Source: Erysipelotrichaceae bacterium (GTDB lineage Bacteria; Bacillota_I; Bacilli_A; Erysipelotrichales; Erysipelotrichaceae). From it: a DNA stretch of 32,309 bases. A model generated the notes under the pieces. It saw only the letters and a list, made by a program, of their open reading frames with translations, had not been told where the DNA came from and made no database searches. Positions 5,645 through 32,116 of this stretch are shown in pieces; within the stretch, counting starts at the first letter, position 1, and each line of letters starts with the position of its first letter. The translations under genes were made by a program, and so were the position numbers. The stretch spans positions 1 to 32,309 of the forward strand of contig JAAYWN010000038.1 of the NCBI GenBank assembly GCA_012516665.1, in the 5' to 3' direction.

Positions 5645-5915
5645 ACAAAAACGTCCCCCAGCTATTTCTAGCTGTAAGGACGTAGTTCTACGTGTTACCA
5701 CCTTACTTTAAAACGATCTCACGACCATTTCCTCTTCAAGTACGCTGATCCAATCAGAAATACTCTATGTCTGTAACGGGACAGCCCGTCGCGGCCTACT
5801 TATCGGACGCGCAGCTCCAAGATCATGTTCACCTGCTTTTTGTATATCCTCTTTCAGCTTATGAGGACTCTCTGCAATACTGACAGCTGGCTACTCTTCT
5901 CTTCATCGCTTGTAT
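5645..5915 (-). promoter_or_regulatory. T-box riboswitch (methionine) with terminator/antiterminator
   Basis: On the minus strand the leader carries a Stem I with an AGAGA motif and a distal GCTGAAAGAGG loop. The specifier-loop context is GGTGAACATGATC; the likely specifier AUG (methionine) is at 5824-5826. The T-box AAGGTGGTAACACG is at 5691-5705. The antiterminator pairs GTAAGG with CCTTAC around an inner CGTAG/CTACG stem. The competing terminator at 5651-5683 pairs ACGTCC with GGACGT, includes CAGCTA/TAGCTG, and is followed by TTTTTG. Uncharged tRNA-Met is expected to favour the antiterminator and switch on metQNI. The structural assignment rests on reading these motifs; no covariance search was run. 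Confidence 0.92.
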
Positions 5916-26081: not shown

Positions 26082-26830
26082 CCACCCGTAAAACGGGTGG
26101 TTTGCTCTGAGGCTATAAGCCTCTATTGCTAGCCAGCGTCTTAAGGCGCTGGCTTTTCCATATCTCAATATATCGAAGCCTCCATTGCAGTTGTTACTTC
26201 ACCGGTCGCAAGCGACCATTTTATACTATTTTATTCTTTGTTCTTACTTGCTTATCTTCGCCAAATGGATCCTCGTACTCTTTCACGCTCAGCTTATCTT
26301 TAGCGATATCATCCTTTTCTTGTTCTCGGATATACTTCCGTACTGTTTCTTCATTTAGTCCTACTGTGCTTACATAATATCCATCAGCCCAGAAGTGTCT
26401 ATTGCCGTATTTGTATTTCAAGTTCGCGTGATACTCAAATACCATCAGTGATGATTTTCCTTTTAAGTATCCCATAAAACTTGATACCGATGTCTTCGGA
26501 GGTATTGATACCAGCATATGAACATGGTCTGGCATCATATGTCCCTCAATAATTTCAACTCCTTTATACTTGCAGAGCCTCTTGAAGTATTCAATGATAT
26601 CTTTCCGTAATTGATTATAGATCACCTTTCTCCGAAACTTCGGCGTGAATACAATGTGATATCTTGTATAATACTTTGTGTGTGCCAACGAATCATATTT
26701 ATTGGCCATTACTTGATGCACCTCATCTTTCTATGGCGACTTCGACAATTTCCATATTAAACTGATGGGGTGCTTCTTTCTACAAGAAGCACCGACTGTC
26801 CACCCGCCTAGCGGGTGGTTTTTATGTTTC
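26075..26830 (-). mobile_element. IS200/IS605-type insertion sequence with tnpA only
   Basis: A Y1 transposase gene is flanked by hairpin-rich ends. The end upstream of tnpA has CCACCCGC/GCGGGTGG (26800-26818) and a 10-bp stem GGTGCTTCTT/AAGAAGCACC (26769-26793). The end downstream has GGTCGC/GCGACC (26204-26217), AGCCAGCG/CGCTGGCT (26131-26154), GAGGCT/AGCCTC (26109-26123) and ACCACCCGT/ACGGGTGGT (26081-26101). The outermost hairpins of both ends share CCACCCG/CGGGTGG, as expected for transposase recognition. Exact cleavage sites were not resolved, so the ends are approximate. No tnpB is present. Confidence 0.85.
26221..26709 (-). CDS. tnpA: IS200/IS605-family transposase TnpA (Y1 HUH)
   Basis: Single-strand DNA transposase of 162 residues, complete. 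The HUH motif is PDHVHMLV (His 62, His 64). The catalytic Tyr 126 is in ETVRKYIREQE. Family hallmarks YHIVFTPKFRRKVI and HFWADGYYVSTVG are present. The ATG at 26707-26709 has GAGGTG nine bases upstream; a GTG four codons earlier is less likely. All key residues are intact, so it may be active. The last codons run into the hairpin end of the element. Confidence 0.95.
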   Translation of the reverse strand: MANKYDSLAHTKYYTRYHIVFTPKFRRKVIYNQLRKDIIEYFKRLCKYKGVEIIEGHMMPDHVHMLVSIPPKTSVSSFMGYLKGKSSLMVFEYHANLKYKYGNRHFWADGYYVSTVGLNEETVRKYIREQEKDDIAKDKLSVKEYEDPFGEDKQVRTKNKIV

Positions 26831-29441: not shown

Positions 29442-29467
29442 AAGATTGCCGCATGGGCAATCTTTTT
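29441..29467. terminator. Bidirectional terminator between the unknown gene and the secreted repeat protein
   Basis: A 10-bp stem AAAGATTGCC / GGCAATCTTT with a 5-nt loop. Both strands have short T-runs after it. It lies right at the stop codons of the two convergent genes. Confidence 0.8.
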
Positions 29468-30413
29468 AGTTTACACCATACCAGCCAATGCCTTCTGCCT
29501 TCCAGCCCAAGGTAACAAGCCAATCATTCTCATTCTTTGAAGTCGTATAATTATGCGTTCCCGTTGAAACATTCGGATTGTATTGACGATACAGAGGAAC
29601 ACTGTGACTGTCATCCGAATACCAGCCAATGCCTTCATCGTTCCAGCCGATGGAGACAAGATTGTCTCTTTCGGAAGCATTCACTGTGTAATGATGATCG
29701 CCTGAGTTGGGATTGTACAGACGATATACCGGCGTATTGGAAGATGCGGGTGCTTTCCAGCCAATGCCTTCATAGGTCCAGCCGATATTGGCTAAATGGT
29801 CTCTTTCCGATACGGAAGCAGTGTAGAAGTGTTCGCCGCTGCACGGATTGTATAGACGGTACATATTGATATTTCCAGAAACAGCTTTTGCCTGTTCTGA
29901 TGCATTCCAATATGTCACGGTCACGCTGATACCAGACGCATCATTGCATGTATATAGAATGAAGGAGCCATCATTGACATTTTCAGCATATCTGCCATCT
30001 GAGAGATCAATGCCATTTCCTGTATTGGTCCCCTGATAGGACGAGGCCATGGTCAATACGGTCGTACCGGCATCATCACGGATGGTGCCCGTAGCTCCGG
30101 CACCCAATGTCCGGATAATACTGAAGCCCTGAGAAGCATGATCGGCGATCATGACCTTGTCGCCCCAAGGCATATATGCTGCGCTGTCTGCCGCATCAAC
30201 GATGCTCTGAGAACTTCCTTCATACAGTTTTGCCTGATAATTTCCAATCGTCAATGTGCCCTGCGAACCATCAGAAGTATGCCCAATAGCCTGTACCTGA
30301 ACAAGTTCTTCCCCTGCCTGCGGCAGAGAATGTCTTGCTGGTCCTGCATGCAGTACTGTGCCAAGCATCATTGCACATGCCCCGGCAGCAATTGCTCTCG
30401 TGAATGTTTTCAT
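29466..30413 (-). CDS. Secreted protein with sortase-like domain and three DUF5648-type repeats
   Basis: A 315-residue exported protein, with a signal peptide to about residue 23 and no lipobox or LPXTG. Residues 50-170 resemble a sortase fold: IADHASQGFSIIRTLGAG supplies His 92 and ILYTC supplies Cys 156. The Arg expected a few residues after the Cys is absent (SVTVTYW), so it may be inactive or use another residue. Residues 184-220, 229-266 and 274-312 are three repeats of the form YRLYNPNSGDHHYT...LVSIGWNDEGIGW, matching DUF5648 repeats of secreted proteins, which may bind cell-wall or carbohydrate ligands. The gene lies behind two c-di-GMP riboswitches. The ribosome site is AAGGGGAG. The sortase link is inference. 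Confidence 0.82.
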   Translation of the reverse strand: MKTFTRAIAAGACAMMLGTVLHAGPARHSLPQAGEELVQVQAIGHTSDGSQGTLTIGNYQAKLYEGSSQSIVDAADSAAYMPWGDKVMIADHASQGFSIIRTLGAGATGTIRDDAGTTVLTMASSYQGTNTGNGIDLSDGRYAENVNDGSFILYTCNDASGISVTVTYWNASEQAKAVSGNINMYRLYNPCSGEHFYTASVSERDHLANIGWTYEGIGWKAPASSNTPVYRLYNPNSGDHHYTVNASERDNLVSIGWNDEGIGWYSDDSHSVPLYRQYNPNVSTGTHNYTTSKNENDWLVTLGWKAEGIGWYGVN

Positions 30414-30469
30414 CTTTCTCCCCTTTGCCTGATGGACGAGCCAAGCAGAAAGAGAAGATCAAGATCTCA

Positions 30470-30545
30470 TATCTCTGCAGCTGGCTGCCATCTTTAGGCC
30501 CTATAGCTTTGCGTCCTTAGCTTCCGCATAAGTTTGCTCATTTAT
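30470..30545 (-). ncRNA. c-di-GMP-I (GEMM) riboswitch, gene-proximal copy
   Basis: The minus strand holds the GEMM core: GCAAAC, a stem capped by the GNRA tetraloop GGAA, then GGACGCAAAGC, GGGCCTAAAG, and GGCAGCCAGC. Downstream of it, a long imperfect hairpin GCAGAGA.../...TCTTTCTGC (about 30441-30477) includes pyrimidines able to pair with GAGAAAG of the ribosome site. It may be the expression platform of this copy; no U-run follows, so translational control is a possible reading. Confidence 0.9.
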
Positions 30546-30572
30546 TTGTCAGGAATATCTGTCTCAGAATCA

Positions 30573-30614
30573 TAAAAGAGATCAACCAGTCATGCATGCA
30601 GACGGATTGATCTC
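30573..30614 (-). terminator. Terminator between the two c-di-GMP riboswitches
   Basis: GAGATCAA / TTGATCTC stem, extended by two C-G pairs across a one-base bulge, with a loop of about 16 bases, followed by TTTTAT on the minus strand. It is probably the expression platform of the distal riboswitch. Confidence 0.65.
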
Positions 30615-30619
30615 CGATC

Positions 30620-30698
30620 ATTCACTGTCGCAGCTGGCTGTCATTTCAGACCCTATAGCTTTGCGTCCTTATCTTTCGATAAGTTTGCTGATTGCTTT
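30620..30698 (-). ncRNA. c-di-GMP-I (GEMM) riboswitch, promoter-proximal copy
   Basis: The core reads GCAAACTTATCGAAAGATAA with a GAAA tetraloop, then GGACGCAAAGC, GGGTCTGAAA and GACAGCCAGC. These match the known class I c-di-GMP aptamer, including the GGACGCAAAGC block and tetraloop. It is followed by a terminator and then by the second copy, about 150 bases downstream. Confidence 0.92.
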
Positions 30699-30714
30699 TT
30701 TTTGATACACCTAT

Positions 30715-30743
30715 AATCTATTTGCTGATCCGCCTGAAGTCAA
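30715..30743 (-). promoter_or_regulatory. Promoter of the tandem riboswitch leader
   Basis: Minus strand TTGACT (30738-30743), 17 bases, TAGATT (30715-30720). The predicted start at about 30708 gives a leader of about 295 bases holding both riboswitches. Confidence 0.65.
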
Positions 30744-30787: not shown

Positions 30788-32116
30788 TCAGATATCTTTT
30801 TCCGTCACTGTTCCATAGATCATTGGCTTGATCTCGCCCTTTTCAGGTGTGATCTCAATAGCTGCATGCAGCAGTTCTTCTGCATCCTTCAGATACGTAT
30901 CATCATTGACATACAGCGTGCAGAGAGTGCTGCCCTTTTTAACGGCATAGCCGCATCTGACCCGCATGACAAGTCCTACCGCCGGGTCGATCGTATCTTC
31001 TTTCTTTGCGCGGCCCGCTCCCAGCAATTGTGCTGCCGTACCGATCTTTTCTGCATTCATGCTGGATACATATCCATCGCTGTCTGCCTTTACTTCTATA
31101 TGCTGTTTGACAGCGACCAGCTTTTCCATATTCTCTACCGTAAGATAGCTGCTGTCTCCCCCCTGCAGAGCAATCATCTTCTGCAGTCTCTTTAAACCAG
31201 AACCATCAGCAATAGCCTGTTTCAGTTTCTTCTGCGCTTCTGCTTCATCTTCAGCAAGTCCCGCAAGCATCATCATATTCTCGCCCAGCAGCATGCATAC
31301 TTCATACAGCGGATCGGTCTCTGCAATCTTCCCGCTCAATAATTCAACTGCTTCTCGCACTTCCAAAGCATTGCCTACTGCCATGCCCAATGGCTGATTC
31401 ATATCGGTCACAAGTGCTCTGACTTTTCGGCCGACCAATGTTCCAATGCTGACCATCAGTTTTGCCAAAGTGAAAGCTTCTTCTTTCGTCCGCATGAACG
31501 CTCCCGTGCCTGTCTTGACATCCAGCACAATGGCATCTGCGCCGGAAGCTAATTTTTTTGACATGATACTGGAAGCAATCAGCGGGATCGAGCGTACCGT
31601 AGCCGTAACATCTCTTAAGGCATACAGCTTCTTATCTGCCGGCACCAGATTGCCTGTCTGGCCAATCACAGCTACGCCGTTTTCTTTCACGATCTCTTTA
31701 AAGCGATCCATTGACTGCTCAATAGAAGTCCCCGGGATCGATTCCAATTTATCCAAAGTACCGCCCGTATGGCCTAAGCCTCTGCCGCTCATCTTCGCCA
31801 CGGTACCGCCGCAGGCTGCGACTAAAGGAGCCACAACTAAAGTTGTTGTATCCCCGACCCCGCCTGTACTGTGCTTATCCAGTTTTACGCCCGGCAGATC
31901 AGAAAGATCCACAACATCCCCGGAATGCATCATGGCCATGGTCAGATCCGCAGTCTCCTGCGGTGTCATCCCTTTCTGCAGGATTGCCATGCACATGCTA
32001 GCCATCTGATAATCCGGAATATCTCCTTTGACATAGCCGTCAATCATTTCATGGATCTCTTCTTTGGTCAATGCATTTCCATCGGCCTTTTTCTCAATTG
32101 TGTCAACAAATCTCAT
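30788..32116 (-). CDS. pdp: Pyrimidine-nucleoside phosphorylase
   Basis: Cytoplasmic salvage enzyme that splits uridine or thymidine with phosphate. It has 442 residues, normal for the Pdp/DeoA family. The signature SGRGLGHTGGTLDKLESIPG is present at about residue 110, and the phosphate site KHSTGGVGDTTT near 81. Other motifs are AIVLDVKTGTGAFM and RKVRALVTDMNQPLG. The C-terminal domain ends IEITPEKGEIKPMIYG. The ribosome site is GAGAGG. The clear family signature does not separate Pdp from DeoA; I chose pdp since this form is usual in Bacillota. No other nucleoside-salvage gene is adjacent. Confidence 0.94.
   Translation of the reverse strand: MRFVDTIEKKADGNALTKEEIHEMIDGYVKGDIPDYQMASMCMAILQKGMTPQETADLTMAMMHSGDVVDLSDLPGVKLDKHSTGGVGDTTTLVVAPLVAACGGTVAKMSGRGLGHTGGTLDKLESIPGTSIEQSMDRFKEIVKENGVAVIGQTGNLVPADKKLYALRDVTATVRSIPLIASSIMSKKLASGADAIVLDVKTGTGAFMRTKEEAFTLAKLMVSIGTLVGRKVRALVTDMNQPLGMAVGNALEVREAVELLSGKIAETDPLYEVCMLLGENMMMLAGLAEDEAEAQKKLKQAIADGSGLKRLQKMIALQGGDSSYLTVENMEKLVAVKQHIEVKADSDGYVSSMNAEKIGTAAQLLGAGRAKKEDTIDPAVGLVMRVRCGYAVKKGSTLCTLYVNDDTYLKDAEELLHAAIEITPEKGEIKPMIYGTVTEKDI

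Follow-up and report, generated by a model that had tools for sequence, protein, structure and literature searches.

Tandem c-di-GMP-I riboswitches form the commonest class of tandem riboswitch, with 347 doublets and 12 triplets on record (PMC9481103). A characterised example is Bc3-5 of Bacillus thuringiensis, in which ON switches act through terminators that use the binding-site C, P1 and P3 (PMC4759541). Among single c-di-GMP-I (GEMM-I) switches, Cd1 of Clostridioides difficile is turned OFF by ligand, and its antiterminator engages the C that pairs with the ligand (PMC9262584). Bi-mechanism pairs have been listed for SAM switches only, and none for c-di-GMP-I, in a review in which the other tandems were not all checked for this property (PMC9481103). 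Here we describe a c-di-GMP-I tandem that resembles each of these systems in part.

The window is the whole stretch of DNA that was analysed, 32,309 nucleotides from an Erysipelotrichaceae bacterium (contig JAAYWN010000038.1), and all features of the locus lie on its minus strand. An earlier reading made from the letters alone (the sequence-only reading) had placed two c-di-GMP-I riboswitches in series at 30441-30743, with a terminator between them. An Rfam covariance scan gave exactly two RF01051 matches in the window, both above the 35-bit gathering score: a distal aptamer at 30626-30699 (62.3 bits, E 4.3e-10) and a proximal aptamer at 30473-30548 (56.2 bits, E 1.3e-8). The covariance model accepted both copies rather than one, and the proposed series of two is upheld. 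The aptamer core and GNRA tetraloops claimed for both copies were found as well: the P2 loops are GAAA in the distal and GGAA in the proximal copy, GGACGCAAAGC and the CAGCC..GCUGC arm are kept in both, and the conserved A47 (GACGC-A-AAGC) and C92 (GCUG-C after P3) are present, the distal copy having A at 47 and C at 92. The originally proposed interval covers both aptamers but cuts the proximal hairpin, which reaches 30412.

Both aptamers stand in one leader upstream of the controlled gene (29466-30413, 315 amino acids). A promoter-like site, TTGACT-17-TAGATT (30715-30743), adjoins the 5' side of the distal aptamer; it is a consensus match only, agreeing at 9 of 12 positions, and is overlapped by a second possible -10 box, TTATAG. 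At the paralogous locus (L005), TTGACT followed by a TTATA box also stands ahead of the distal aptamer. Next to it on the upstream side, a gene for pyrimidine-nucleoside phosphorylase (30788-32116) stops 45 bp short of the promoter-like site; this gene is not part of the switch. The arrangement is that of a same-ligand-class tandem: two complete aptamers, each with its own platform, behind one putative promoter known from the consensus match only.

To the window pair the host genome (222 contigs, 94.8% complete) adds a second pair, on contig C76 (2211-2285 and 2386-2460), for a total of four RF01051 matches. The C76 pair precedes a paralogous gene whose product is 60% identical to the window protein over its first 175 residues, and follows a gene that we take, from its sequence, to be murA-like. 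In a sister species (G002), the window locus is found at 94% protein identity with its aptamer pair intact. The aligned leaders of all three loci keep the promoter-like box, aptamer, terminator, aptamer and ribosome-binding-site (RBS) hairpin.

The terminator reported after the distal copy (30574-30615; stem 30615-30577, U run 30577-30574) holds up as a fold, with z-scores against dinucleotide shuffles of -3.7 in the window, -3.6 in G002 and -7.0 in the C76 paralogue. One pair of its stem is A-U in the window, G-C in G002 and U-G in C76; covariation is thin, as there are only three loci and two of them are near-identical. A simple terminator scan of the window missed this element, probably because its short U run (UUUUAUG) and bulged stem fall outside the scan rule. 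In ViennaRNA models the terminator shares no bases with the aptamer, so that an occupied aptamer would leave it free to form.

After the proximal copy, the sequence-only reading had noted a different structure that might affect the ribosome site. We found a hairpin at 30412-30465 that covers the Shine-Dalgarno sequence (AAGGGGAG, 30425-30418) and the first bases of the start codon, with z-scores of -1.8 in the window, -2.4 in G002 and -2.5 in C76, and a block of the ribosome site is probable. No U run follows this hairpin in the window, and it is therefore not a terminator. When the proximal aptamer was enforced in ViennaRNA, the probability that the Shine-Dalgarno sequence is unpaired fell from 0.60 to 0.08 in the window, from 0.42 to 0.02 in G002 and from 0.33 to 0.25 in C76, where the effect on the RBS is weak.

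The reading that we favour, with moderate confidence and largely on folding models, is that two GEMM-I riboswitches, each complete and able to work without the other, share this one leader and have the same sign (OFF), the first acting on transcription and the second on translation. With the distal aptamer bound, most likely by c-di-GMP, its 3' arm would be kept occupied and the downstream terminator would form; with the aptamer empty, the arm CAGCUGC-GAC would pair with the 5' side and loop of the terminator and permit read-through. On read-through transcripts, the 3' arm of an empty proximal aptamer would pair with UCUGCUUGGCUCGUCCAUC and free the Shine-Dalgarno sequence, in a proposed anti-sequestor at 30431-30492 (3' arm 30492-30471 with about 30456-30431). 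Binding would release UCUGCUUGGCUCGUCCAUC to fold over the Shine-Dalgarno sequence and start codon. High c-di-GMP would in this way shut off a secreted sortase-fold/DUF5648 wall protein through a two-level OFF gate, with a steeper response and silencing of mRNA already made. The response had been anticipated as either steeper or logically combined; the steeper, two-level form is the one favoured, and a logical combination is not, the two gates being most likely of the same sign.

We infer the sign and both competing pairings from the folding of bound and free forms, a comparison that the sequence-only reading had proposed. It favours OFF at both steps, since the terminator is clear of the aptamer and the enforced proximal aptamer closes the Shine-Dalgarno sequence. 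In six of six elements, there is a transcript length close to the decision point at which the P3 helix is mostly or wholly gone from the ligand-free minimum, with an energy gap of about 1-9 kcal/mol that a ligand could pay. The competing pairings do not stand out clearly from chance, however, and the hairpins are better supported than their switching partners: against shuffled leaders, p was 0.66, 0.11 and 0.19 for the distal pairings at the three loci, and 0.06, 0.08 and 0.32 for the proximal ones (0.06 in the window). Simple duplex energies for the aptamer arm paired with the leader downstream stood apart from those of shuffles only at the G002 distal element and at a single-copy locus (L070). 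The distal antiterminator registers differ in part between the two paralogues, and a candidate compensatory change from G-C to A-U in this antiterminator was dropped on that account.

A simpler arrangement would be a plain pseudo-cooperative doublet, in which the hairpin over the ribosome site has no regulatory role, or the proximal copy works in some other way, and in which the sign could be ON. We regard this as possible but doubtful. It would agree with the class to which c-di-GMP-I doublets have been assigned (PMC9481103), with the action of the characterised tandem Bc3-5 at terminators (PMC4759541) and with the triple arrays of relatives (below), which likely act at terminators too, and the z-scores of the RBS hairpin reach only -1.8 to -2.5. 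On the other hand, neither the window nor C76 has a terminator behind the proximal aptamer, and the hairpin over the Shine-Dalgarno sequence recurs at three loci despite diverged leaders. An ON sign would further lead one to expect a terminator that overlaps the aptamer, which the distal one does not. Decay of one or both aptamers, leaving the terminator as a fixed attenuator without regulation, seems to us quite improbable. The aptamers score modestly, their J1/2 is AUCA or AUGA as against AAaG in the Rfam consensus, and P1 is hardly formed; yet the aptamers of the window and G002 are 99% identical while the protein differs by 6%, similar J1/2 sequences are common among relatives, and Cd1, described without P1, still binds its ligand (PMC9262584).

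As to the ligand of the two-level gate, c-di-GMP is still the likelier assignment on sequence grounds, as first proposed, at a certainty lowered by one base that had been overlooked. Vc2 position 20, which reads one of the two ligand bases, is usually G in switches that bind c-di-GMP, although G is not strictly required, and is A in the GEMM-Ib, or 3',3'-cGAMP, switches. Both window aptamers, distal and proximal, carry A instead of G at this ligand-reading position (Vc2 G20; Rfam position 11), and with A in both copies the ligand is less certain than the label 'c-di-GMP' suggests. Both G002 aptamers also have A, the C76 pair is mixed (A distal, G proximal), and A is found in 10 of the 15 aptamers seen in the genus. 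These counts, including the A-type distal copy of C76, would suit switches with 3',3'-cGAMP (c-AMP-GMP), not c-di-GMP, as their ligand, as would the Desulfobacca aptamer, in which the same G-to-A change gave better c-AMP-GMP binding and perhaps a slight loss of c-di-GMP binding (PMC9481103). We nevertheless consider this reading unlikely. In Cd1, the G-to-A change at the ligand-reading position had no large effect (PMC9262584), and the host lacks a visible source of cGAMP. Its genome encodes eight GGDEF domains, and, with the Ser of GacA presumably mapping to the GH..GD motif, all eight keep Asp where GacA has Ser, as do 20 of 20 GGDEF domains sampled in the genus from a further five genomes (G002, G010, G022, G034 and G092), in all of which one or more A-type aptamers occur. 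GacA, a Hypr enzyme, carries Ser at this site (PMC8835794). No SMODS/CD-NTase was found in the host genome; at about 95% completeness, a cGAMP-making enzyme could be missing from the assembly. With no cGAMP synthase found, c-di-GMP is likelier and cGAMP ranks second. A further scheme, in which the tandems of the genus sense two different cyclic dinucleotides, 3',3'-cGAMP through A-type copies and c-di-GMP through G-type copies, would make C76 a two-ligand, two-level gate and the window a double A-type gate; we hold it to be very improbable.

The controlled gene had been described as encoding a secreted repeat protein. The secreted surface type stands, and the product is more than repeats: a signal-peptide-like N-terminus is followed by a sortase-fold domain (about residues 38-170) and a C-terminal DUF5648 (residues 183-313, E 2.5e-54). 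Pfam names no N-terminal domain, and PF04203 was unmatched there even at E 10. An earlier model of this domain from three sequences was unusable (pLDDT 45); a model with eight relatives from the genus as input reached a mean pLDDT of 88. This model resembles sortases of three classes, A, C and E (Foldseek E 2e-6), with a VIA Z of 13.6 over 119 residues and an rmsd of 2.5. Of the catalytic residues of sortases, His (His92) is invariant in the eight relatives and Cys (Cys156, 64 residues away in the window protein) is found in seven of the eight; the Arg, which sortases carry on their last strand, is absent after the Cys in all eight. We take the product to be a secreted wall-type protein with a sortase fold, as modelled. 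Relatives fuse the sortase-fold domain to choline-binding repeats, and the host genome also encodes one PF04203 sortase, on another contig.

The sortase-fold domain family (window 29898-30308, minus strand) was confined to one genus in a search of 316 genomes; its members (L005, L077-L080 and L083) retain His and Cys, lack the Arg and are not recognised by Pfam. One genome (G021) holds about 37 DUF5648-type stretches (37 matches, for example L042 and L048-L069) and no c-di-GMP-I switch. A scan of genome contigs for the controlled protein gave one record, in sister species G002 (JAKVKC010000002.1, MAG Solobacterium sp. UW_MP_BUL1_1), and a scan of viral contigs gave no match. A plasmid DNA search returned short matches only: three Enterococcus records covered 13% of the query, and one Cetobacterium and one Ilyobacter record covered 5%.

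In a survey of the order, the c-di-GMP-I family was present in 54 of 316 genomes, and close relatives have doublets, triplets and one case of four in a row. In the last (L128, contig G302:C163, 520-975, minus strand), four c-di-GMP-I aptamers in series precede a secreted-protein gene, with C at the ligand-reading position in copies 1 and 2 and G in copies 3 and 4; the tandem-riboswitch review records c-di-GMP-I as doublets and triplets only (PMC9481103). Triple arrays precede similar secreted-protein genes in five genomes (L129-L133 in G299, G301, G303, G300 and G304), with GTTCTTTTT after each copy and a possible terminator that overlaps the 3' arm of the aptamer. Unlike the window pair, these arrays are probably ON switches, judging by that overlap. 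At L070 (G081, 1501-1576), a single c-di-GMP-I aptamer with a terminator follows a murA-like gene; this is the same site as in C76, with one copy and an unrelated gene as cargo. Two further loci carry single A-type aptamers (L024 in G010, L025 in G022), with GCCUUU (L024) or GCC (L025) upstream and AAAGGC downstream, adjoining a terminator. Pairing of these segments as a P1 that blocks the terminator is possible, which would place an ON platform in the same genus.

Elsewhere in the window, a T-box leader (5673-5915, minus strand, 121 bits) stands before methionine-type ABC transporter genes (NlpA lipoprotein, ATPase with a NIL domain, and permease), and an IS200-like transposase lies at 26221-26721 on the minus strand.

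Set against the described systems, tandem c-di-GMP-I switches as such are known; less usual at this locus are the probable transcription-then-translation output, the A-type ligand-reading base and the unrecognised sortase-fold target. Similar to Bc3-5, complete c-di-GMP-I aptamers with their own platforms stand in series before surface-protein genes, and a steeper response is expected. Unlike Bc3-5, whose ON switches have terminators overlapping the aptamer, the window terminator is clear of the aptamer and OFF is predicted, the second platform is apparently translational, and the ligand-reading base is A. With Cd1 the window shares a weak or absent P1 and, by prediction, an antiterminator that takes the ligand-pairing C and an OFF response to ligand; Cd1, in contrast, is a single copy, acts on transcription and has G at the ligand-reading position. 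Like the Geobacter GEMM-Ib, or 3',3'-cGAMP, switches, the window aptamers have A at Vc2 position 20, but no Hypr GGDEF was seen in the host genome. Gs1761, a Geobacter GEMM-Ib switch, departs from the window aptamers in the pairs that close P2 and in parts of the core. The locus could be used to learn whether Bacillota aptamers of the A type respond to cGAMP or have kept c-di-GMP as their ligand. Through it, a sortase-fold protein family that had gone unrecognised comes under predicted cyclic-dinucleotide control.

The two-level output itself has two partial precedents. Bc1 is a c-di-GMP-I leader that acts on both transcription and translation, termed 'transcription-translation' dual regulation (PMC11218506), as is predicted for the window; Bc1 does so with one aptamer, a long platform and two terminators, whereas the window has two aptamers with one platform each. 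If the two-level reading is true, rising c-di-GMP would stop new transcripts and also the mRNA already made. The closest parallel to such a layout is the bi-mechanism SAM-II/SAM-V tandem, in which a terminator comes first and the ribosome site is covered second, for the same ligand and with the same sign (PMC9481103). That tandem joins two different aptamer classes, whereas the window joins two copies of one cyclic-dinucleotide class, and the locus would then be a bi-mechanism c-di-GMP-I tandem, a layout so far listed for SAM switches (PMC9481103).
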